Source: Tomocerus qinae
Lineage: Eukaryota > Arthropoda > Collembola > Entomobryomorpha > Tomoceridae
Direction of reading: 5' to 3'
Assembly: GCA_020055645.1 (NCBI GenBank)
Contig: CM034546.1
Span: forward strand, 114,564,375-114,628,374
DNA length: 64,000 bases
In this document: positions 84 to 22,800 of the stretch, piece by piece
Layout of the letters: each line of letters begins with the position of its first letter
Numbering within the stretch: the stretch's first letter is position 1
Position numbers and translations under genes: made by a program
Notes under the pieces: model-generated
The model's database searches: none
What the model was told of the DNA's origin: nothing
The model's input: the letters and a program-made list of their open reading frames with translations, nothing else

Positions 84-2158
84 AGAAATTGTTCGGATGG
101 GTAACAGCGGCCTTAGACGACGAGTCTTCGCTGCAGGCTCTTGTCTTGGCCAAATCTTTGAGACGCAGTATAACTAAGGCCCAGATAGTCGTCCTCACTA
201 CTCATCATGTGTCTGAATCCATTGTGTAAGTGAAATGTACATTTATTAATATTAGTGCGGAAATTTTATTACTTTTTGTTCAGTCGGATGCGAATTTCGG
301 ATTCTTTCAGCCGTAACCAACAACAGAATGCAAAAAACAATTTTCTCTGCAAAATTCCAATACGTGTTGTACATAAATTAAACCTGCTTTCAGTTTTTGC
401 AAACTATTACCATTTTGAACGTATTATTCCAAAGTACCTATATCTATCCGCTTGCTGTATCATGTATCTAATCTACAATGTAAAAGTAACTTTACATGTT
501 GCATCCAGTAAAGTTAATAAAATAGGTAATGGGTAATTATAAACAGTTCTTCTAAACTTTTTAAATTTTTTTTAGTCTGAAAGCATTTTTTGTTGTTTTA
601 ATTTATTGCTATTCTTCTGTTGTTTTCATTTCTAGTGAGATAATGAGTATCTTTTATGATAAAAACACGTAAAACGTAATGAATTGTACTACATGCAACT
701 ATAAATATTATCTAGTTGCGATGTCCTTATTTTCTATTACGAATTCATAGTGGGCAATTTGCCTACATTGCGCAAAAAATTGTTTTGGTTCTGCTTATTG
801 TAAAAAAATTGATACATATCTGCGTGAAATATATTTATGTGTTAGTAAATATATGTAAAGTATGTGGTATTATGTAATGCAGTAGTTTATCTCTGTTGAA
901 CATGCCCATAAAAAGGAATCCTTGAAATAAATGGAGAAGGTACTTTGGTTGAGGTTGGTTAGGTATGTTTGTGTTATTGGAGAATAAAATCAAGATAATT
1001 TAAAATTACAGAGATGCCCTAGCGGAAGACTTTGATGTAGTGGTAAATATCAACGCGGAATTGGATCCCACCCACGGACTATCCGCCCTTGATTATGCGA
1101 AATTGTTTTGCTGGAGTCTCACCTCCTACTCAAAATGCATTTTTGTGAATTCGGATATGATGATGCTGAAAAATTGCGATGAGTTGTTCGACCGCCCACA
1201 CATTACAGCTTTGCAACATTTGAACAAACCAGGAAACTTTGACTCATCGCTATTTGTCATAGAACCCTCTTACAAAGAGTACAAAAACATTTCCAAATTG
1301 TTGGAAAGCTCCACATATTTGTCCGGTATGTTTCTTATAAAAAGTTGTTGTTGCTACTGAGTTGTAGGCGTAGGATGCAATGATGTGTATTTTTACACGA
1401 AAACAATTTTTTAGTAATGCTTTATGACACGCATCTAATAATATGTTGGCAATGCGTGCTTTGCGTGTTGGTAAATAGCAACCTACTCAGATCCATCCTA
1501 ATCATACCGATCATAACAATTAAACCAATAATTGCTAACAATTTTTATGCAAATACTTTGAACTTTGAATTTTTTCTTAGGAAATGATTATCTCAATGAA
1601 TACTTCAGCAATTGGCAGAATGAAGACAAAAAATATCAAATCGACTCTGATTTCTGTATCCGTATTACAACAGATCCCGTTCTTGCAAAGTAAGTTTGTG
1701 TTTTGCAAAATGTAGAAGTTGAAGTTATATAATTTTATGCCGAAGCATGTATTAATATTTTATCGCAATTACAATGACTCAAAATAGTTTATTTCAGTTT
1801 GGATTAAAAACCAAAGAATAAGATTTTTAGATTACACTTACAAGCACTTCTATATTCATTTGGAATTTAGAATAAATGTTGGAAAAGATAATTAGGAAAT
1901 GAAAATTGCTCAATGTATTTTTTTCAGAATACCTGACACTGCAAAAATAGCACACTTCTCTGGTGTGAGATTATGGACTAAAATTTCTAATGCAGAGTGG
2001 CCAGACAATTTGGCAGAAAACTATGTAAGTCTAGATATGATATATACGAGGTTGTAACTGATTTAATTGAAACGAGGCTACAGAAAATGTAAATCAATCA
2101 TAAGCAATTATTTCCAAATTTTCAGAGGCAATTATGTAACTTATGGCTGGAGATATTC
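84..2158 (+). other. GT8 (glycogenin-like) domain exons of the fusion, catalytically degenerate
   Basis: The translated exons follow glycogenin from its first strand (WVTAALDDESSLQALVLA, then SLRR) through CWSLTSYSKCIF and CDELFDR to the final helix (LCNLWLEIF). Glycogenin makes UDP-glucose-dependent glucose-O-tyrosine and short glucan primers. Key positions differ here. The metal-binding DxD is NSD (Asn at 1148-1150, Asp at 1154-1156). The tyrosine acceptor stretch reads CIRITTDPVLA, with no Tyr. The HFxGxxKPW motif reads HFSGVRLW, without the lysine. The GADQG loop is shortened to GNDY. The exon at 84 begins in phase 2 with an in-frame TGA just upstream, so at least one more 5' exon lies outside the window. 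The domain ends directly where the PKS linker begins, with no stop codon between. Glucosyl transfer is probably lost or altered (inference). Confidence 0.85.
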
Positions 2159-5100
2159 ATGGATGAAGTTGTCCGTGAATTAGCTCCTGAGATTGCCCTC
2201 AACTTGGGAATAAATTGTAATTTCGAGAATACACCTTCCAAACCAGTTGAGATTTCCAAAGAAGACCACGAAAGTTTGAAGGACGCAATCGCAATCATAG
2301 GACACAGTTGTCGATTTCCTGGAGCAAACAATGTGGAAGAATTTTGGGAGCTTTTGAAAACTGGAGGAGATGGGATAACGTCCATTCCCTTGGAGCGTCT
2401 CAACGAGGTTGAACTTCAAGATCCTCTTTTGACATCTCTTTTAGCAGGATATTTGAAATGTCCGATTGACGAGTTCGACGCGAAATTCTTTGGAATAAGT
2501 CCTCGGGAAGCTGCATATATGGATCCACAACAACGTCTTTTGGTTGAAGTTGCTTGGGAAGCCCTGGAGAATGCAGCAATCAATCCGGCAAGTTTGAAGG
2601 GATCTAACACAGCGGTTTACTCCGGTGTTTGGACACATGACTACGAAAGGGTCGTTACAGAAAAGCCTTCTGCACATGATTTTCATCATGTAATTCTTGG
2701 AAATGCATTCAGTGCAACTTCTGCGAGAGTGTCTTACTTTTTAGGGCTGAATGGTCCAAATATTGTCACAGAATCAGGATGCTCTTCCTCAATGGTCAGT
2801 CTTCATCTCGCATGTAAGAGTTTGCGACGAGGAGAAACTAATCTAGCCATTGCAGGAGGTGTCAATTTACTAGTTGCTAAATTCCCTTATAGTGAAGTCC
2901 CAATTTTAGCCAAAGATGGGCATTGTAAAACATTTGATGAGTCAGGTGATGGTTTTGCTAGAGCTGAGGGAGTCGGTGTTGTAATTCTAAAGAGATACAC
3001 CGATGCTATTCAGGATGGAGACAGAATAATGGCAATCATCAGAGGTTCTGCTGTTAGTAATGAGGGAACAACTTCCAGTTTTGGGACCCCTAGCAAATAC
3101 TGCCAAGAGTTGGCGATTAAAGACGCAATAAAAGATGCCAACATTAATCCAAATCGTGTGGATTATGTTGAAGCACACGGAACAGGAACCCCGGTGGGAG
3201 ATCCTATTGAATTTGCAGCTATTGCATCAGGTTATGCAGGCCAGAGGGAAAACCCACTTATTGTAGGCTCCGTAAAAACGAATATAGGACATACTGAATC
3301 TGCTGCTGGACTCGCAGGTCTAATTAAAGTTATAATGTCTATGAAAAATGAAGTGATCCCTCCCCATGTTAATTTCAAAACACTAAATCCAAATATTAAT
3401 TTGGAAGTGCTTCCTGCAATCATTCCAGTCAGTGCCATAGAATGGCCGAAAAATTCTACTAGAAGAAGGATTGCTGGAATCAGTTCCTTTGGAATCAGTG
3501 GAACAAATGTGCATGTAATTGTTGAAGAACCACCAATGATTCACAAGAGTAAGATTTCAGATACTAAAGTAGATAGGCAACATCAAATTTTAACACTTTC
3601 AGCTAAAAATGAATCAGCTTTGAAAGATCTAATTGCAAAGTATGTTCATTTCTTTGAGGAGAATGCTAGTGTCAATTTACCCGATTTGGCATACACAGCT
3701 AATACAGGCAGAGCTCATTTTAAATACCGAGTGGCCGTTACGGGTAAAAATGTAGAAGAGATTAAAACTTCCCTTTCAAAACAGACACCAAATGGGCCGA
3801 AGAATGAAAAGCCAGTTGTTGCTTTTCTTTTCACAGGCCAAGGTTCTCAATATCCTGGTATGGCAAAGAATCTCTATGAAACGAATTCAGTATTTCGTCA
3901 TGCTTTTGATCAATGTGCCATACTTCTTGAAAATAACAATGATATTTCTTTAAAGGAGGCGATTTGGAAAGGATCACTAGAAAAAGAAGCAAATAATGGT
4001 AAACTGACTTTAAATCAAACTATTTACAGTCAAACAGCAATATTTTGTGTTGAATACAGTTTGCTAAAGGTATGGGAGAGCCTCGGTGTCAAACCTGAGT
4101 ACGTCCTTGGTCATAGTGTTGGAGAATTTGCTGCTGCCACAGCTGCAGGTATCATAACTGTCGAAGAAGCTATTTCCCTCGTCTACGAAAGGAGTCAGCT
4201 GATTTATCGATTGCCCCCAGGTGGTATGTTAGCGATTAGAACAAAGAAAGAATGCACGGAAAAATTAATTGCTACTTACGAGCAGGATAATACAGGTGAG
4301 TGGATTGACATTGCTGCTGTCAATTCCGAAGAAGAAATTGTAGTTGCAGGAAAACAAGAAACTTTAATCAGGTTCTCTGATTTTTGTAAGGAAAGGGAAA
4401 TTAAAACTCAGGTATTAGCAGCCTCGCATGCTTTCCATTCTAGAGACATGGAAGAGATGATGTATGATTTTGGAGTCGTAGCCAATCAGGTGAATTACAA
4501 AAGTCCCAAGTGTAATTATGTATCTGGCTCAACTGGCCAAATGCTACAGCCACAAAATGGTATCAACTCAAAATATTGGCAAAATCACGCCAGGGAAAGG
4601 GTTAACTTTTCTGCAGGAATCAAAACATTAGAAGACAAAGGGTGCAATGTTTACATTGAAATAGGAGCTCATCCAATTCTCCTTGCTTTGAGTATGTCAA
4701 ATGTCACGGCCAATACGATCCAAAATTCATTGTGGCTCCCTTCAATGAGAAGAAACGAAGAAGAGTGGCAGACACTCTTGGGAAGCGTTTCTAAATTGTA
4801 CATCAATGGTTTTGATTTTAAATGGGAAAGTTTGGATACTTCTTTTACTCGAGAAAAACTGGAATTACCAACTTATCCCTTCCAGAGACAAAAGTATTGG
4901 GTAGAACAAAGCAATGGGGATTCTGATGGAGTTACATTTTGTGGAAAATACATTCATCCTCTCCTTGGCAGTCAAATCCCATTGGCTGGGGTAAACGAAC
5001 ATATTTTCCAACATGTTTGGGATTTGAAAAATCTGTCTTATTTGCAAGACCATCAAGTAGCAAATGTTATCGTTTTACCTGGTGCTGGTTTTCTTGAAGT

Positions 5101-8100
5101 ATTATTAGCTGCAGCAAAGCAATGCGTTCCCAATAGCGAAGAAAAATTCAATATTGTCTTGGAAAATTTCGCAGTTGAAGCTCCTCTTGAGTTAGAAACT
5201 GGAAAACAATACCGAATTCAAATAGTAAAATCTGCAGATGCTGAAAATCCGGAAGCTTCAATTATCAAGCTCTTTATGTACCGCAATATCAACGGATACA
5301 ATGATGAAAAGGGATGGAAGTCCTATTCAAGTTGCAAATCCCTACATAATAAAGCATATGACCAAGGGGTTAAAGCTTCAATCAACGAAATAAAAGAACG
5401 ATGCCCCAATGAATCTTCTACAGAAGAATTTTACAAAAAGGCCCCTGAAATTGGTATATTTTTTGGACCGAACTTCCAAAGTATTACAAAGGTATGGAAA
5501 GGGACCAATGAGATTCTATCTGAGATACCGATTCCAACTAGTGCTGGAAACATAACAGAATATGTATTCCATCCCATTGTCCTCGATGCAATGATCCAAA
5601 CTTTTGGTTACAGTATTGGGGAAGACAAAAAGGAATTGCACTTACCTGTGGCAGTGGAGAAATTCGAAATGTTTTCAGACGCAAATGTAAAATCTAATTA
5701 TTATTTGGCCCACGCAACGTGGGAAGAGGGTACGAACAAAGGAGCAGTCAAACTGTATGACGAATTTGGTAAAATTATGTGCTCAATGGAAGGCATTAAA
5801 TTAGTTCGCACATCCGTGACTTCTTTCCTCAATGTTATCAATTCACAAAAGAATAAACTTCCAGGAATGTACCAAGAATTATGGAGAGCCAGAGATGGTC
5901 CTCTACAATCTAGAGTAGACTTGCAATCAATTCCTTCCTATGCAAAAATTCAAGAGTTGTTAGACAAAGATATGGTTGAACAAATGACGAGACATGAAAT
6001 AATACCCGAAGCTTTTCTCCAGGCGAATCGTGTGATTAGTACTTACGTTCTTGATGTTTTCAAGTGCATTGGCTGGAATCCTAATGTTGGTGACAAATTC
6101 GATTCTAAATCATTGATGAATGATTTAATTGTCACACCTGTACAGGAATCCTTGTTTGAAAGACTTCTTATGATTCTAGCGGAAGACAAATATTTGGCCA
6201 AAAATGTAGATGAAGAGTGCGGTGTTACAAATTTTGAGGTAATTCGCCAATTCCCAAAAGAATCAGAGTTGTCTAACCTCATTTACAATGAGGAAGAGAA
6301 TTTGAATAAAGTTCTGGTAAGAGCAAAGGAAGAGGTCGCTGAATTTCCAATAGCAAAATATTGCATGAAGTGTCTTCCTTCTGTTCTCCTCGGTAAACAA
6401 ACTGCAGTATCTGCATTGTTCTCCGAAGGTAACGATATAGATGTGTTCCGAGTTTACACCCATGGTATTGGTGTTGATTTAGCAAATATCAGGGTCAGTA
6501 AATTCATCCTTAATGCATTCATTAAATCCAGTGGTGGAATGCTCCGAATTCTTGAAGTAGGTGCAGGATCTGGTGCAACTACTAACAAAGTATTAACGGA
6601 CTTACAAAAGCAAAGTATCCCTTTCCGTTACACATTCACAGATATTTCTCCACATTTCTTGGATGCAGCTAAATCCAAGTTTAAGGGTATCAATGGGATA
6701 GAGTACAAAATATTAAATATTGAAAATGATCCTAAGAGTCAAGGGTTTGTTCCTAATCATTACGATGTAATAATAGCTGCTAATGTTATTCACGCTACTG
6801 AAAATATCCGACATGCGTCAACCAATGTAAGAAAATTATTGGCACCAGGAGGAATATTTGTTTTACAGGAAATGTTACAAGAAATTCGGCATATTGATAT
6901 GATTTTCGGTATGTTAGAAGGTTATTGGAGATTTAAAGATTTCGATCTAAGACAGTCTCATCCAACGATAAATCTTGAAAAATGGAGTAAAGTCCTTAAA
7001 GATTGTGGATTCACAACTACAGTAAATGTTTCTGATCCTGCAGAATATACATCAGTCCTTGTTTCAACAGCTAACAATTTTCAATCTTATTGCAGTACAA
7101 TTGATTTGATAGCACAGCCATTGAAACAAAAGCGCTGGGTCATGTTTAACGACGAAGGAGTATTGCACGAATTATTGAAAGAGAAACTTGAAAGCATTGG
7201 GGAAAATGTGTATCTAATCACAAAAGAAAGTTGTACAAACACTGAAGATACCAGTGCCTTATTAGACTCCATATGCAGCCAAGTTGAAATACAAGGTATA
7301 ATTTACCTCAGAGGATACGTATCCGATATTCAGCAAGAAAATTTCTGTTCCTGTTTGTTAAGCTTGTGCAAATACTTCATGAAAGCAAAAGATGTCCCAT
7401 TTCCTACTTTCTATGTTGTTACAAAAGGAATTCATTACATTGGAGACCAAAGTTGCGGGAACCCTGCCAATGCCACGATGTGGGGAATAATGAAATCCAC
7501 GAAAAATGAGAGACCAGATACAAATGGAAAAGCTATTGATTTGGATCCTGATAATAATGATCCACATGTAGACATGATGGAAGTATTTTCTGAATTGTGG
7601 AATACTGAAGATGAACCAATTATTGCCTTCAGAAACAAAAAGAAATACGTTGTAAGAATATCTTCCATTCCAAATCCTCCAGCCCCTCTGACTTTGCCCA
7701 ATCAACAAAGATATACTCTAGTTATACCCAAAACAAAAGCAATCAACGATGTTACATTCAGACCTATGGCAAAGGAAACTTTAGAAAAGAATTTCATGGA
7801 AATCTCAGTACGAGCTTGTGCCTTAAATTTCAGAGATATTCTCGTTATTTTAAAACCGGACATGTACCATACATTATTTGAAGCTGTTGGTACAGATTTT
7901 TCGGGTATTGTCACCGATATTGGTCCCGAAGTAACAAAATATAAAGTTGGTGATGAAGTATTTGGAATATCTAATGTCACAGCTGTAGCAAGTCATGTAG
8001 TTGTTCCGTCTGACTTATGTTTGTCAAAGCCAAGCCATTTCACACATGCTGAAGCATCCACTTTACCTTCCGTTTTTCTTACAGCTTACTACTGTTTGTT

Positions 8101-11100
8101 TAACGTAGCCAAATTAACAGCAGGTGAAACTATTTTAATCCACGTTGCTTCCGGAGGAGTTGGTCTAATTGCAATTCAACTAGCTAATTTAATCGGTGCT
8201 AGAGTTATAGCTACTGCCGGAAGTAAAAGAAAACGGGCGTTTTTACGCTCAATTGGGGTGAAGTACGTTTTCCACTCCCGAGACACAACTTATGGTGCAG
8301 AGATTGAAAAGGCACTAAATGGAAAAGGGGTCGATATGGTATTAAATTCGTTGACAGGTCCTAATTTCAAAGAAACTTCATTAAAAGCATGTAATAAAAA
8401 TGCTCGTTTTGTAGAAATGGGCAAAGTAAATATTTGGAAACCTGAAGAAGTTACAAATCTTCGACCAGATGTACAGTATACAATTGTAGATCTTGAAAGG
8501 GTTCAAAAAGCAGAAATGGCAGGTTTGTTTGATAGAATGGATGAAATTTTCAGAGCAGGGACAGTAAGACCTCTTGAATATACACGATTCGAAGTTACTC
8601 AGATCAAAGAAGCTCTAAATTATTTTCTCAAGGCGCACCACATCGGGAAGATTGTTGTCGCTATGCCTGAAATTCAATTATCAGTTGGAAAAATTGTTTC
8701 CAAAGATTTACTCTTCAATACTCAAAGTACATATTTAGTAACAGGTGGGTTAGGCGGCATTGGTTTCGAAGTTGCAAAATGGATGGTCACTTGTGGAGCC
8801 AAACACGTCGTTCTTGTAGGACGCTCCTCCCCAACTGAAAAAGTTTTATCTGTTTTAAAAACTCTGAATTCAAAAGGAGCAAACATAATGACAATGCAAG
8901 TTGACGTGGGAGATTGGAATCAATGTAAGAATTTATTTGATACCATAAAAAACCCGGATTTGCACCTGCCCCCAATTAGAGGTGTAATGCACTCTGCGGG
9001 TGCCCTTTCCGATGGAATCCTGGCCAATCAAACTTGGGACAAATTCAAAATTGTTTTCAATGCTAAAGTAAATGGAGGCTGGAATCTTCATAATCTAACA
9101 AAAGATTTATCACTGGAGCATTTTGTCCTATTTTCGTCAATGGCGGGCATTATAGGTAAGAAACATGTTTATTAAAATATACTAATCAACGCAGTATTCA
9201 TTTTTCCGCATTGTTTCATGTATTTTTTATTTTTTTGTTTCAGGACCCATGGGACAAAGCAACCACGCTGCTGCGAATATGTTTTTAGATTCTTTGGCCC
9301 ACTACAGACATTCTTTAGGATTGCCCGCTCAGGCCATAAACTGGGGTGCCTGGAGCGAAATCGGAGCGGCTATCCACACCGCTTTCGGAAATGAAGGATT
9401 ATTTGGGGTCAAGCCATTTACACCAAATCAAGGCTTAGCCGCATTGAAATTCATTATGTCCCGACCATTCACACAGATAGGAGTAGTAGAACTGGATGCT
9501 GCTGCCTTCAAAGAAAGTTTTGGTCACATAGGTAGCTATTTAGATGAACTTGACACAGGAACCCAAACAGTGTCCGCTCAACAATCTTCTGCTGAAGCTG
9601 AAACATTTTGGGCAGAAATTAAGGAGCTTAATGAAGATCAACGGGTTGTTTACATTAAAAAGCATCTTGAGACAATAATTAGGCAAACATTGAAATTGCC
9701 AGAATCGGAAGTGTTAGATGAACACCAAACGTTTTCTGAAATGGGATTAGATTCTCTGATGGCTGTAGAGATGCGTAACAAATTGCAATTGATTTTTGGA
9801 AAATATGTCACACTAAATGCAACATCCTTGTTAGATTACCCAACATTAGGAGGCTTGAGTAAATACTTAACAGAATTGACACTTAAAGCAGATTTATCCT
9901 CGATTGATGAACCTGCTGAAGAAGTATCTTCAGATGAGATTCGTAAGATGTTAATAGAAGACGCTATACTCCCTGCACATATAACTAAAGCAGATGATGA
10001 TTATATAGAGCCTTCAAAACTTCAAAATATTCTCATAACAGGTGCCACAGGACATGTTGGGGTTAATTTACTTTGTGAAATTTTGAAAATTAAACCTGAT
10101 GCTAAAATTTGGTGTCTCCTCCGGGGCAAAACTGTTGAGAATGCCAAGAAAAGATTAATGTCGACTTTGAAAAAGTTTGATTTGACAAAATCTATTGATA
10201 TCGAGAAAATCACGATAGTTTTAGGTAATGTTGCTCAAGAGAATTTGTCTCTGAGTCCGGAAATGTACGAAAACCTAGCGAAAAATATTGATTTAGTTGT
10301 ACATTGTGCAGCTAAGGTCAACCATTTAGAAGAATACAGAAAATCAAAATCCTTCTTTGATGTTCGGTCTGTAAATGTGTTAGGAACACTCCGCATACTA
10401 GAATTCGTATCTAGCTTTAAGACAAAGCATCTCGTATACCCTACTTCAGCAACAGCTGCAAATGTTATCAATGAAAATGGGTTCTTAGCTGAAGAATGTC
10501 CCACACTGGATAATAATGGTGACGGAATTAATATTAAATCTGGTTACGTCATCTCAAAATTCATTAGCGAGAAACTCATAGGTCAAGCTATTGCAAGAGG
10601 AATCCCATGCGTTGTTCTCAGATACACAAGTTTAGTTGGTCACAGTCAAACTGGATTATTTACTCTGGACACGAATTGGCTGATGGCAGCTTGCATATCA
10701 TTTGGTCAGATGGGTGTAATGCCCAATTTCTCCGGAGGTTGGCATACCATTGCTTGTGATGTGGCTTGCACTCTCAGCTGTAAATTAATGTTCAGTGACA
10801 AAAGACAATGTGGTCTTTACAATATTCTCCAGCCAAATACAATGACAAGTCATGAATTTGCTTCAATTGTCACAGATTTTGGTTTTAACTTAAAAGTTAT
10901 CGAAGTTAAAGAATTTGCAGAGAAAGTTAAAAATGAAGGAGAAAATTCCATGTTGGCCATGTTCAAGGATAAGTTTCCTGTCGGAGATAACATAGAAGCT
11001 CTCACAGGGGCTTGTCCAACTTTTAAATTAGGACTGGAGAAGGGTCAAACTATTTATTGCTTTAGTGAAAAGTTAGCAGAGATTGTACCTGGATTTCAGA

Positions 11101-11192
11101 GTCTAATCCCACTGCCTAAAGACACTGTTAGAAAACAATTAGTCTATGCCAAGAAAGCAGGGATTTTAAAAGCAGCTGGACTTAATGTATAA
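84..11192 (+). CDS. Glycogenin-like GT8 / highly reducing type I polyketide synthase fusion with terminal thioester reductase (5' partial)
   Basis: Exons: 84-225, 1012-1325, 1581-1689, 1928-2024, 2126-9155 and 9244-11192. Every junction is GT-AG and the phase carries through, giving about 3,212 residues plus a missing N-terminus. The GT8 domain comes first. PKS numbering below counts from the Met at 2159. KS has Cys208 (GCSSS), His340 (EAHGTGT) and His378 (NIGHTE). AT has GHSVGE with Ser653, and HAFH at 757-760, the usual malonyl-CoA signature. DH has His965 and Asp1143. MT has a SAM motif, EVGAGSG, near 1466. ER has HVASGGVG at 1995. KR has TGGLGGIG near 2194. The ACP serine (GLDSL) is at 9753-9755. 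The reductase has GATGHVG at 10041 and YVISK at 10545. This domain order matches fungal highly reducing PKSs and animal FAS-like PKSs. Inferred product: a reduced, possibly C-methylated chain released as aldehyde or alcohol. The KR tyrosine is replaced by His. PKS identity is certain; the fusion is strongly supported by frame. Confidence 0.92.
9156..9243 (+). other. Short intron inside the ketoreductase domain
   Basis: This 88-nt intron begins GTAAG and ends in a T-rich tract plus CAG. It splits a glycine codon (g|ga), so the protein reads AGIIG-PMGQSNH across it. It is the only intron within the PKS part and falls between the KR catalytic serine and the position of the catalytic tyrosine. 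Reading through it meets a stop after a few codons, so splicing is required to reach the ACP and reductase. Confidence 0.9.
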
Positions 11193-16873: not shown

Positions 16874-19800
16874 TTATCTTTTGTATCCGGTACCAGGTCT
16901 GACATTGCCAGTGCCTGTACTTTGTCCAGGGTAATTATTTCTCGTAGGGGAAGTGATTGGTCTGGGTATTCTCGAACCGACGAGACTAGGATTAGAATTG
17001 TTCGAGTTGGTTGTATTGGTACTGCTTGGACTAGGACTCGGGCTGACTTTTCTAGCTTCATCGCTGGACAAAAGTTCCCATTGCATTTGTAATTTGCGGA
17101 ACCTGTCAGGTTCTTTGGAACTTTCGCCTCCAGCTGCTCCACAGGGAGAGCCTTCAAAAGACCTTGGTCGTTGAGCCTTCGTAGGTTCCATCCCTTTTTC
17201 TCTACCTTCGTCTGCAGAGGTGGAAGCTGGTATTTTAGGTCTGGAGGGGAATCTAGCTAAAACCCCGGGCTTCAACTGCAACCGCTCATTGTTGACTATG
17301 TTCTGAGCTGTCTTGGATTTAGGAAGGGATGATTGAGCTTGTCTCGGGGCTTTGGGTCTTTCGTCTGAGAAAGATCTTTTCATTTGCGACTTCTTCAACT
17401 GATTTGCATAGTATTTGGAATTTTTCGACTGGACTTTGGCAGTTCGGGAATCGGCTGATGAGGATTTTCTCGTTGACGATGCAGAAGCTATTCTTGTTGA
17501 CGATCCTTTCGCCGAGTTTTTTCTAGAGATAGGGAGAGATGCACTGGATTTCGTTGGTGTTGCAGGATTCATAGATTGATGAAGTAGTTTTGTCTCGTGA
17601 AATATATCCAGCTGGAATTGAAAAGGGGGCTTGGAGAGTAAATGCATGTTCACTAGCATTTGGTCGTAGAGAAACCTTGTTGAAGTGTTGCACAGAAACA
17701 TAAAAGCTTCTGGCTCGTAGTGCGTTCGGAGTAGCCGTTCTTTCGTCCGCAGAAAGGTGAGCCAAGAACCCAGATTACGCAAACTGGAACAAAGTCATGA
17801 ATTTTAATTCTTCATTTCCCCTTTGATGTGTGAGTCGGGTGACAAACGAGACACAACAAATAAAGACTTACTTGAGCAAACCGCATACGAAAGCATTGAA
17901 CTTCATGGGTCCCTCTGCGAGCGACTCTTCACTGTTAATTCTCAAGACGAGTTCATTCAAAGTTTGGGCAGTTGGGCCTACAACACACGGAAATTGGATG
18001 ACCTTAAAAATGTCAGCACCTCCAGGGAAAACCAAAATAAAAAGAGTGATAAAAAGGAAATGCTGACTGACCGTATTGAATGGAGGCCTCAACGACACGC
18101 CAAACCGTATTTGGCACCCGTCCAAAGATCGTTTCCAGGAATGGGCATAGTCCATCACTGAGCAGAGAATACAAAGCCGGACACAGACTCTCCAGCACCA
18201 TTTTTCCTCCGGGAGACTGAGACATGAGAATTGGATTAGGACTCGCTCCAGCACCTGATGTCGTTGTCTTGTTATCTAAAACTGATTGAATTTGGGACAC
18301 TGCTCCTGCCACACCATCAGTTAGACCTGCACACAACAAGAGCACATTAAGATAATGAGAAAACACCATCCATGAATCTACACTACCTACTACCCGCTGC
18401 TGCTAAAACTAAACATTCTGTCCACTATGGTCCTAGTTCTGAGTAGGTGGCTCTACATCTGACAGCTTTACATTTTCTACTCCTCAGAAACTCAATAAAA
18501 TATCTCACCACAACAAGTCGCATAAATTATGGTCTGACTCAGAATGCAGGAAACTTTCCCATCTATGCTTTCATCTATGCATATTATATCAGTCAGATAT
18601 TGTTACCTATTTAGTATAATAGTATCATGTATTAGGAAAACAACTGACTTTGTTTTTCGGCCATGTCGATAGGATTTCGATGGTGTTTATTGGCAGATGA
18701 AGAGCCAGTACACATGGGAGCAACATGAGCGATGATTCTAGCAGCTGCGGCAGCTCCACCATCATCGAATTGGTGATGCGTCTTGAAATGATTGTCAAAG
18801 TCCACAAAGGAAGTTTGTTTAGGAGTATTTGTGGGGACCCGGCGGGTGCTTAGGGAATCCCCGGATGAATCAGCAGAAGGAATGTCATCTCCAGTGAGAT
18901 GCGAGTAGCTTTCTAGTTGTTCCAGGTTTCTCGCTATCTCCGTTGTAATCTCGGCTACTTCGGGTAAAGTTTCTTGCAGAGAGAATCTCTTGAATTTTTC
19001 AGCCATCGTGTTTCTATTGCGATTCCCTCCAGATGATTCATTCAAACTGTATCGCTTTGTGGGATTTGCACGGGTGTTCGTGAGTCTTTTGCGGAGTATT
19101 ACCGGCGACTCATTATTCTCCTGTCGATTATCTGCCACGTCTTCGGTGTCTTTTTCCGATTCGTCTCCTCTCTCCCGCTTGTCAATTGGTTTTATTTCAT
19201 GGAGAATGGATTGCACTTCAGTCGGTAGGAGGAAATTGAGAGATGGCCAATCTTTGACATGACTCAAGTCTCGACTTCGCAGCTCTTCAATATCATTGCA
19301 AGACATTGGTCTTCCTCTTCGTGGTACTTGAGGATTTGAGGCGCAGTCTCGTTTAGCACGAGTAGGTACTTTGTACTTCTGCGGCATAAGAAACACATCG
19401 TTTTTAGAGCGCTGCTGTGCCAAAAATCTTAAGTCGGGCAGAGTATAACTTGGAAAACAAATGTAAACAGGAGGAGGTGCTCCTGGAGTATTTGTTTGTG
19501 GTACTTTACTTTCTTCCTTTGATCTATTGATATTTGAATTGAGAATATATGAAGTTTGAATTTGAATACTTCGAGATTTCTTTATCGCTTCTGCCATTTG
19601 AGTCGTGGTCGTTACACTATTCCTTCCTCGTCGGTGTCCCGGATGTCTATTGTTGTTCCACGACTCGTCCATAAAATTATTATTATGTCGACCAGAAGAT
19701 CCTGAAGATCCGCTTGTTAATTGGTCTTCTAAAATCGAATTGTTTCTTCGCGGAAACATCTGAGCCACATTAACTGTCACAACATTTTGCATATCAAAAA

Positions 19801-22800
19801 GTTTTATGTTCCGTGTATTGTTTCGCAGGAGAAGCGGACTTCCTGGACAACTCTGAGTTAGTAAACTCTTTCTGAAGGAATACATGCTGGAAGTCAGTGG
19901 TGTCGTCACGTTTGTGTTTTCACTTGAGTCACTATTGCTCCCGTTATTGTTGTCTTGAGGTTTTCTGTATTTTTTATTCGACTTTAGCTGTCTCCAGTTT
20001 GTCATTTCACTCAGGTCAACCGGAGAGGTCAGAACTGCTGTCAAATCAGTTTCAGGTGCCGTTCTGTATGTACTAGTGGTCGTGGAACTTTCTTCCATCA
20101 ACCCATCAATCCCTTGGAATGCTATTGTATAATTATTACGATTTTGAGTTAAGCATGTCGCTAGCAGTTCTCCAGCTCGGGTGTCTAATGAATCCGTACT
20201 GAATGTCGATAATGGCAACTGCTGCTGGTTTTCATTTATAGGTGAAAACAAATTCTCGGATTTGCATATGGACATATCCATAGACTGCTGATTTTGATCA
20301 TCATCCTGTTCAACCCAAAAAACGTCATTACATTTTACAATCCTCATTACTATCATCACAACTTACACTAATCACACCAATTAAGTTTCCTACACTCCAG
20401 CAAAGGTTAAAGTCTAAAAAGTTATTACATTAGTTAGCGTAGTTATCAATCTTTCAACAGGAAACAATTTTGCTGAATGGGCAGGAAAGAAATCTTAAAG
20501 TAAGAGAAAAGTTTAGTGAGTTAATTTACCACAGAATGGGAATTAGGGCTCATGGAGTCCTCAAAGTCAAGCTGCTGCAAAATAGATCCGGTTATACTAG
20601 CTATAGTCTCGCCTTGATTAGGCTAATACAAATAAAACAAGAACTTTGTTAAACACGCCTTTAGTAGTGTGCTAATGCCAATAACACCACAAAAAAATTA
20701 GTACATTTACACTAAAGGTAAGGAAAACAAGGCGTGGGTGTTGAAGGTACACAATAACCATTCAGCAGATCTCACTCCCGCGTGGTGACTACAATAGTTA
20801 TTGCCATTACACACGAAATCAATCTAAGTTTCCTTAATGTATGTAATCATTACTTGTAGGTCGGAAGCGCAAAGTGGGGGAAGTCTCAGCAAAATATCCT
20901 GCGACTGGAAATCCTCAATGTCAATTTGAGCCATCGTCGCATCGAAGTCAAAGTCCTGTTGTTGATGACAAAGTCGACGCTGTTCTTCTTCAGTCCCAAC
21001 CAATCCGATACACAGAGGATTCGGGTAGTTCGGACTAACACCTGGCTCGCCGGCAACTCCATCCGTCTCAAATCTTCTCACAAACACAACAGACACAAAA
21101 TCAACACCAAATAACACTCTATTTACATTAGAGATTAACCTATAGTTGTGCAACACCAAATTACATGTGCATTCTCTATGTACACCGGAAATTTGTATTA
21201 GTCACTCTCCACTACTTAATTACAACTCTAATTAAGACCGTATTTAATATTGTTTATGTAAAATACATTTGTACTTAAATGTACATAAAATTACATGATT
21301 AAAATATGTCTGTCTTCTAGGAAGTTGACATTATAGTAGTCTGAATAGGGAGTTGAGTATTCGGTAGGAGCCGAAGTGATGTACTGAAAGAGGGAATCTA
21401 CTTGTAGTAAATGTCTCTGGTTGAACTCCCTACCAGTGGACTGACACCGAAATGAGTCATCGTGCTCCCTCATCTATCACAGTCTACTAAATATAAGGTT
21501 TTAGTAGGCAGGCTGCCTGCTACTCTCCAACTCTCCAACTGAATTATACATCAACCATCCTATGACTACTATACTTACAAACTCTACACAATTATGTATC
21601 ACCCTAACTAAACCTGTTTACTCCTCTGCTACACACCAAACTGCAAAATGCATTTATTTATACACATGTTGTTATATAATGGTGCAAGCATGCACTACTA
21701 AACTACTAACTAGTATAGATATACCATTCTGATAACGACACACAGCACGACTTTTGTATTTTGCTCGTAGGTATTTATAACTATGTAACTCACTATTATA
21801 TTATTGCATGTGCATATCGGATCTCTTAAGTGATATAATTATATAGCCACTCCTTTTATATAGAAGACAACTATCTTGCATTAGATCGCAGTAATTCAAG
21901 TGTGCAGATAACCTAAGAAACTTACTTCAGTAACTCATGTACAAAGAAAGAGTTCTTGTCGTTCCAGTAAAGGACCCTATCTTGACTGTCCAGAATGACA
22001 CTAATGTATACATTTCTGTACTTTCCTATTATAGTTATTAGTTATTATTATTCCAGGGCAGACTTTGATCTTTATGCCTTCTGTTTCTGCGTCCTTTGAT
22101 ATGAATTGCATATTGCTCTGTATAAGTAGTAATCTCATCATCAGAGGTAATCTTGTTAGTGAACCGAACACCCTACTGACTGACATGCTCGAGGAGAACA
22201 ATGCACACACAACCGGATTTTCCACTTCGAGTCCAACTGAATGAAGAGCACTAATGATAATGATGCTAAGGCTCACTGGGTTTCTTTTCCTTAAAACTGA
22301 AACTATACTAGAGAGCATTGGGTTAAAATGAAAATCCTTTGTTTCTCTACTACAAATCTACTTAGTCAACCAACCCAACAGTAGGTAATGCATAAGGAGA
22401 CTCACAATTGCTAAAATTGTGTTACAACTCCAAACAAGCTTTGTTGAAAGTCGAATTTTGACATTTGTGGTGTGGCCAAAGAAGCTACCCTTAGACGTCC
22501 CTATATTTATATTACACATAAATTTAATAGGTACATGTAATAAAAGTTAGATAGAAGTACGGATATTACTACCAATTTTCTCTAGCAATTATATTTATCG
22601 TTTCTAATTGGATCGCGGTTTCTTGGCTTTGTTCCACTATACTTGGAATTCTCTTGTGCAAATTTTCCAGTGGTAAACCCTTGACAGGTACTGCGAAATT
22701 TGTGTTTTCGGTTTACATTAAAGTGTCTTTTCGCATGATTGCTTATTATTGTTTGGAATTCTTCACAGGAAATGTTTATTTGCTGATCTTATACCTACCT

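Follow-up and report, generated by a model that had tools for sequence, protein, structure and literature searches.

The stretch analysed here (the window) comprises 64,000 nucleotides of the springtail Tomocerus qinae, i.e. positions 114,564,375 to 114,628,374 of the forward strand of contig CM034546.1 (assembly GCA_020055645.1), and carries near its start a gene in which a glycogenin-like domain of glycosyltransferase family 8 (GT8) runs in frame into a type I reducing polyketide synthase (PKS). The six exons listed in the table join into a single open frame of 3212 residues with its stop codon at 11192, the two alternative frames carrying 225 and 257 stops, and all five introns (226-1011, 1326-1580, 1690-1927, 2025-2125 and 9156-9243) begin with GT and end with AG. 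The single frame across five GT-AG introns, from the GT8 domain to the end of the PKS, on which a preliminary description of this DNA had been built, is thus borne out.

Features of the glycogenin-PKS gene, in window coordinates
Feature	Position	Strand	Basis
Window gene	84-11192	+	open joined frame
GT8 exon 1 visible in window (KLFGWVT...VSES)	84-225	+	frame, splice sites
GT8 exon 2, with degenerate DxD (NSD)	1012-1325	+	frame, alignment
GT8 exon 3	1581-1689	+	frame, spliced models
GT8 exon 4, HFSG kept (His 212 equivalent)	1928-2024	+	frame, glycogenin alignment
Long exon: KS, AT, DH, methyltransferase, ER, start of KR	2126-9155	+	frame, Pfam
Glycogenin C-terminal helix RQLCNLWLEIFMDEVV (LWLEIF), then linker; within the ketosynthase exon	2126-2218	+	alignment
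Ketosynthase domain, motifs ESGCSSS, EAHGTGT, NIGH	2285-3544	+	Pfam, patterns
Intron within KR domain	9156-9243	+	KR matches on either side
Last exon: remainder of KR, ACP (GLDSL), terminal reductase (NAD_binding_4), stop	9244-11192	+	frame, Pfam

A PDB comparison of the N-terminal 260 residues gave glycogenin-1 as a match (E 1.7e-26, residues 5-237), and beyond the 2025-2125 intron this alignment continues in the exon of the ketosynthase (KS), where LCNLWLEIF stands opposite LNVWWDIF, so that the glycogenin homology does come close to the PKS linker, as described before. The Pfam model Glyco_transf_8 scores 21.5 bits in the window protein, under its cut-off of 24.3. Downstream, Pfam models were matched for the KS, acyltransferase (AT), dehydratase (DH), methyltransferase, enoylreductase (ER), ketoreductase (KR), acyl carrier protein (ACP) and terminal reductase, and motifs that we take to be those of PKS active sites were found by pattern in these domains. 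With KS, AT, DH, ER, KR and ACP plus motifs on a single chain, this half belongs to the type I reducing PKSs and looks complete, in agreement with the earlier account. Judged by its domains, its expected product is a methyl-branched, reduced chain that leaves the enzyme by reductive release, either as an aldehyde or as an alcohol.

Although a single gene had been reported, and its in-frame fusion stands, the gene is one member of a large family of glycogenin-PKS chimeras. Searching 334 Mb of the genome (115 contigs) yielded 127 KS matches, which correspond to 123 loci after merging four second pieces. The GT8 query gave at least 151 matches, 150 of them listed (147 of 216 candidates were scored), and 136 of the 150 listed are followed on the same strand by a KS within 15 kb, a placement that a random position would have with a chance of 0.3 %. 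At least 83 of the 123 KS loci have one or more such GT8 matches; this is a lower bound, as locus L041 and, weakly, locus L042 escaped the distance criterion. Both were at first labelled GT8-free, and the GT8 profile scored 583 against a shuffled maximum of 46 in L041 and, as weaker evidence, 74 against 52 in L042. The 14 listed matches that lie away from any KS include two exons of an intact, separate glycogenin gene at C1:83795029-83799718. Matches of PF01501 at L001-L003 were rejected as glycogenin, since their translations read as other GT8 families. Two KS copies (C1:62385183-62385911 and C1:72027210-72027941) carry an in-domain stop codon, and some family members therefore look like pseudogenes.

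Spliced models were built for 31 fused loci with an aligner that allows GT-AG introns only and forbids stops, using a GT8 profile refined three times. In all 31 a path leads from GT8 into KS in one frame; these are the loci with DNA reaching from GT8 into KS, 16 of them added because a GT8 match lay near, and they are therefore no sample of all KS loci. Six of them (L032, L035, L043, L049, L050 and L051) show only the later GT8 exons within the DNA covered, and a few models contain small exons that are doubtful. The intact glycogenin gene, whose exons are 61-73 % identical to a fly glycogenin query, has introns in phases 2, 0, 1, 2 and 0. At the five corresponding sites, taken in this order, an intron of the same phase is present in 23/25, 25/27, 26/30, 31/32 and 29/32 of the sequences that cover them, counts that include the canonical gene, with bands 9 and 11 columns wide allowed at the third and fourth sites, where the alignment is gappy, and with the misaligned canonical tail scored as a miss at the fifth site, though its donor stands at the matching place. 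An extra phase-0 intron directly precedes the KS exon in 15/31 loci. Therefore, the GT8 part would derive from the native gene by duplication at the DNA level, and neither from a retrocopy nor from a bacterium.

The window gene lacks the second glycogenin intron only, its exon 1012-1325 combining what 25 of the 27 sequences covering this site have as two exons. This phase-0 intron, ahead of the xxKNCDELF exon, is also absent in L012 (C4:9795763-9796080). Two separate losses are probable, since L012 (whose KS is L034) and the window copy are not sisters in the KS tree. About 5 kb of sequence following the last clear exon of the intact glycogenin were searched for the exon of the Trp-rich helix without success; the short terminal exons proposed by the aligner in this region changed from run to run and were disbelieved.

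The gene had been taken to begin at 84, which is most likely not the case. At all 18 loci inspected, including the window, an AG stands at phase-1 acceptor distance upstream of the first GT8 exon, and a phase-1-compatible AG likewise precedes the first GT8 exon of the intact glycogenin; because of these, a first coding exon with the start codon probably sits further upstream. Additional AGs in different phases occur at 9 of the 18 loci. Forward-frame peptides upstream of 15 loci were compared without finding a common exon, the significant matches being near-duplicate pairs or stretches at dissimilar distances.

For the active site, we used residue numbers and roles that we presume for glycogenin (Tyr 15, acceptor Tyr 195, His 212, Gly 215 and Lys 218), scoring gaps as not kept. 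None of the 26 copies that cover the DxD site, among the 31, has both aspartates, the first alone being kept in three and the second alone in three. Tyr 15 is kept in 0/22, His 212 in 2/31 (the window included) and Lys 218 in 8/31, and the acceptor column, where the alignment is loose, holds Tyr in one of 31 copies and Pro in the window. The window copy reads NSD at the DxD site, i.e. it keeps the second Asp, and retains Gly 215 with Arg in place of Lys 218. In the intact glycogenin gene, by contrast, both DAD and the Tyr region are preserved. While homology to the GT-A catalytic domain places the fused domain with glycogenin, this domain has lost the DxD for metal binding and the tyrosine that serves as acceptor, and for this reason it is most likely a dead glycosyltransferase without sugar transfer.

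Purifying selection on the GT8 domain is seen in those close pairs that permit a good measurement: of ten pairs with at least 170 codons and dS below 1.5, eight have a dN/dS of 0.18-0.335, and the other two (0.61 and 0.675) have a dN above 0.8. Recurrent motifs among the fused copies include NCDELF and the terminal Trp helix. The purifying selection suggests that the megasynthase has a folded pseudo-glycosyltransferase as its N-terminal domain.

The KS tree comprised 35 rows, with its root set at the multi-module PKS of C1:34-35 Mb; the near-copies L022, L027, L028 and L029 as well as the long-branched L076 were left out. With L042 counted as GT8-bearing, the tree needs two label changes, read as one gain and one loss, the loss falling in a clade of seven sampled GT8-free genes at C1:53-57 Mb, whose 1500 upstream bases give GT8 profile scores of 39-68 against shuffled maxima of 54-63.

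As to the origin of the PKS half, a profile of six KS domains scored 756 bits on 7zma (‘putative polyketide synthase’, in two stretches), 510 on CurL and 304 on the fatty acid synthase (FAS) 5my0, which we take to be mammalian and which was the last of the best 60 of 77 profile rows. The best prokaryote KS loci reach up to 50 % identity among the matches listed, and the nearest KS among those searched is bacterial, in a search set without eukaryote or fungal genomes. This half thus looks bacterial rather than FAS-like, and the PKS-like profile scores together with the identity to prokaryote loci make a foreign origin by horizontal acquisition likely. No GT8 was found in 80 bacterial KS loci of at least 588 confirmed relatives, with a hidden Markov model that detected 11/11 of our own loci, several of which had helped to build it.

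It is conceivable that the two halves are merely neighbours, i.e. a glycogenin-like gene ending just past the 2025 donor and a PKS starting at Met 2159, whose frames agree by coincidence. Read-through past the 2025 donor does hit a stop, and the window copy has an in-frame ATG at 2159. However, this ATG lies inside the glycogenin helix, which is encoded within the KS exon, and the junction is phase 0 in nearly all sequences covering it, as given above. Moreover, when the KS frame was read back to the first in-frame stop, which is independent of the splice models, not a single ATG preceded the KS motif in 15 of the 31 fused loci; by the same reading, all seven GT8-free relatives had one. The KS therefore needs an upstream exon at about half of the modelled loci, and we regard two separate genes as extremely improbable. 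Nor are the two parts always separate genes, a case that the preliminary description had raised against itself, given the GT8-KS order at 83 or more loci of this genome. The GT8-PKS fusion is real at the level of gene structure, as known here from DNA alone, and paralogs of identical order, orientation, frame and intron sites lend strong support to the in-frame joining.

The role of the GT8 half is a separate question, for which a scaffold, a substrate or sugar binder and a working glycosyltransferase had been put forward. A working or altered enzyme that adds sugar to the polyketide, to the carrier domain or to itself would fit the clear glycogenin homology and the residues that the window copy keeps, but the near-complete loss of DxD, His 212, Tyr 15 and the acceptor Tyr across the copies, set against the intact gene of the same genome, makes it very unlikely. 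Alternatively, a foreign PKS may have obtained its promoter, start codon and splicing from the glycogenin half, whose translated domain would now be a functionless passenger. The lost catalytic residues would agree with this, as would the GT8-free clade, whose genes have their own ATG before the KS, and a dN/dS that is higher for GT8 than for KS in nine of ten pairs. Purifying selection in eight of the ten close pairs with 170 or more codons, the recurrent NCDELF motif and Trp helix, and the retention of GT8 exons at no fewer than 83 loci argue in the other direction, and we consider a mere passenger rather unlikely. Of the roles offered earlier, the scaffold is the most likely one, sugar binding is conceivable, and the working glycosyltransferase is disfavoured.

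We therefore favour, as a probable though by no means certain history, a duplicate of the native glycogenin gene joined to an acquired PKS and amplified, with a GT8 domain that is now a dead scaffold and that one clade has lost. In this history, the duplicate, introns included, would have been joined ahead of the frame of a bacterial-type reducing PKS, supplying the start codon, 5' exons and splicing of the chimera, which would then have multiplied to at least 83 loci; the GT8 half would later have been lost in one clade, where the start codon now adjoins the KS. The common order, frame and intron sites, the start-codon comparison and the KS tree are observed, and from them the direction of events and the foreign source of the PKS are deduced. 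Glycogenin, whose usual task is to initiate glycogen, is a dimer, and PKS modules dimerise via their KS domains. A glycogenin-type dimer could therefore cap the KS dimer on a shared twofold axis, and such a cap might aid assembly, partner docking or loading.

Several points weigh against this history. The evidence for the fusion is gene structure at the DNA level, and the scaffold role, although the most likely one, is conjectural. The aligner by its design returns no internal stops, and the models of L050, L032, C1_71917k, L041 and L043 are partial or locally doubtful. Across all 24 pairs with dS below 1.5 the median GT8 dN/dS is 0.72, the 14 pairs besides the long ones (41-67 codons, mostly partial models) ranging from 0.46 to 1.52, and KS has the lower value in 9/10 pairs that have both (with a finite KS value), so that GT8 is under looser constraint than KS. 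With L042 counted as GT8-free, the KS tree needs three label changes, and the GT8-free L045 scores slightly above its own shuffles (68 versus 58). Lastly, since one clade does without it, the GT8 domain can be spared.

No GT8-PKS or glycogenin-PKS fusion was found in the titles and abstract openings of the openly licensed literature, which is in line with the earlier statement that no such enzyme has been described; arthropod chimeras arising by horizontal gene transfer (HGT) are already known as a class. With glycogenin, the window gene shares the homology of the catalytic domain and the intron positions and phases of the intact copy, differing in that the fused copies lack the DxD and acceptor Tyr and continue into a ketosynthase instead of the C-terminal part of glycogenin. 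It has KS, AT, DH, ER, KR and ACP with their motifs in common with bacterial cis-AT type I reducing PKSs (CurL-like; mycocerosic acid synthase), in contrast to which it carries introns, a methyltransferase, a terminal reductase and the N-terminal pseudo-glycogenin.

HGT-chimeras of arthropods were reported in 2026, with Folsomia candida as the richest species (PMC13389597, as far as its accessible text goes), and likewise combine a native animal gene with horizontally acquired DNA within a single frame, in many cases following a duplication. In our case the native glycogenin intron sites common to the GT8 part mark the animal-descended interval. The accessible main text of that paper does not contain ‘polyketide’, ‘glycos’ or ‘ketoacyl’; since F. 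candida is its richest species, a glycogenin-PKS chimera could figure in its data sets. For F. candida, the portion of PMC5490193 consulted reports 30 type I PKS clusters and horizontally acquired PKSs, i.e. an arthropod genome that is also rich in type I PKS and non-ribosomal peptide synthetase (NRPS) genes. It differs from the present one with its 123 KS loci, and the paper never mentions glycogenin and has glycosyltransferases solely as a CAZy class. Animal FAS-like PKSs (AFPKs), surveyed in arthropods in PMC10764717, are also animal type I megasynthases, a few of them with R domains, and ‘glycos’ has no occurrence in that paper. The KS of the present family is not FAS-like as in AFPKs (compare the scores for CurL and 5my0 above), and its chain ends with an NAD_binding_4 reductase and has no terminal thioesterase.

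Further observations concern the remainder of the genome and of the window. A multi-module type I PKS with KS modules about 7.6 kb apart lies at C1:34004020-34019998 and C1:35263003-35286506 (L022-L027, L030), two of its KS modules being located in open frames of 3769 aa, and contig C100 (L028, L029), with equal KS score and spacing, may duplicate part of it. NRPS condensation domains gave 12 matches, nine above the cut-off and several within long open frames (places include C1:108415927-108418740, C1:37-42 Mb and C1:60143135; L062, L063), matching what was reported for springtails. A full-length COX1 copy within chromosome C1 (C1:36670928-36672268; L060) has 12 TGA codons and is open under the invertebrate mitochondrial code; it is either a recent insertion into the nuclear genome or a join made during assembly. 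In the window itself, open frames on the minus strand at 16874-17794 (306 residues) and 18632-20362 (576 residues) are without a Pfam match.

Beyond the single gene, it is tempting to speculate, though we hold this somewhat less probable than its opposite, that most polyketide genes of this springtail (at least 83 of the 123 KS loci) go back to one ancient chimera in which the dead glycogenin caps the dimer, provides a platform for docking or gates the loading; we know of no glycosyltransferase-fold accessory domain of this kind in any assembly-line synthase. The family suggests a route by which a foreign, intron-poor megasynthase may be domesticated: it lands in the duplicate of a native gene and subsequently expands into a large family. 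Glycogenin and PKS gene numbers obtained automatically for such animals may accordingly be misread. Since one genome holds the full series of intact glycogenin, fused dead glycogenin and GT8-free relatives, the role of a pseudo-enzyme domain added to a PKS is directly testable here.

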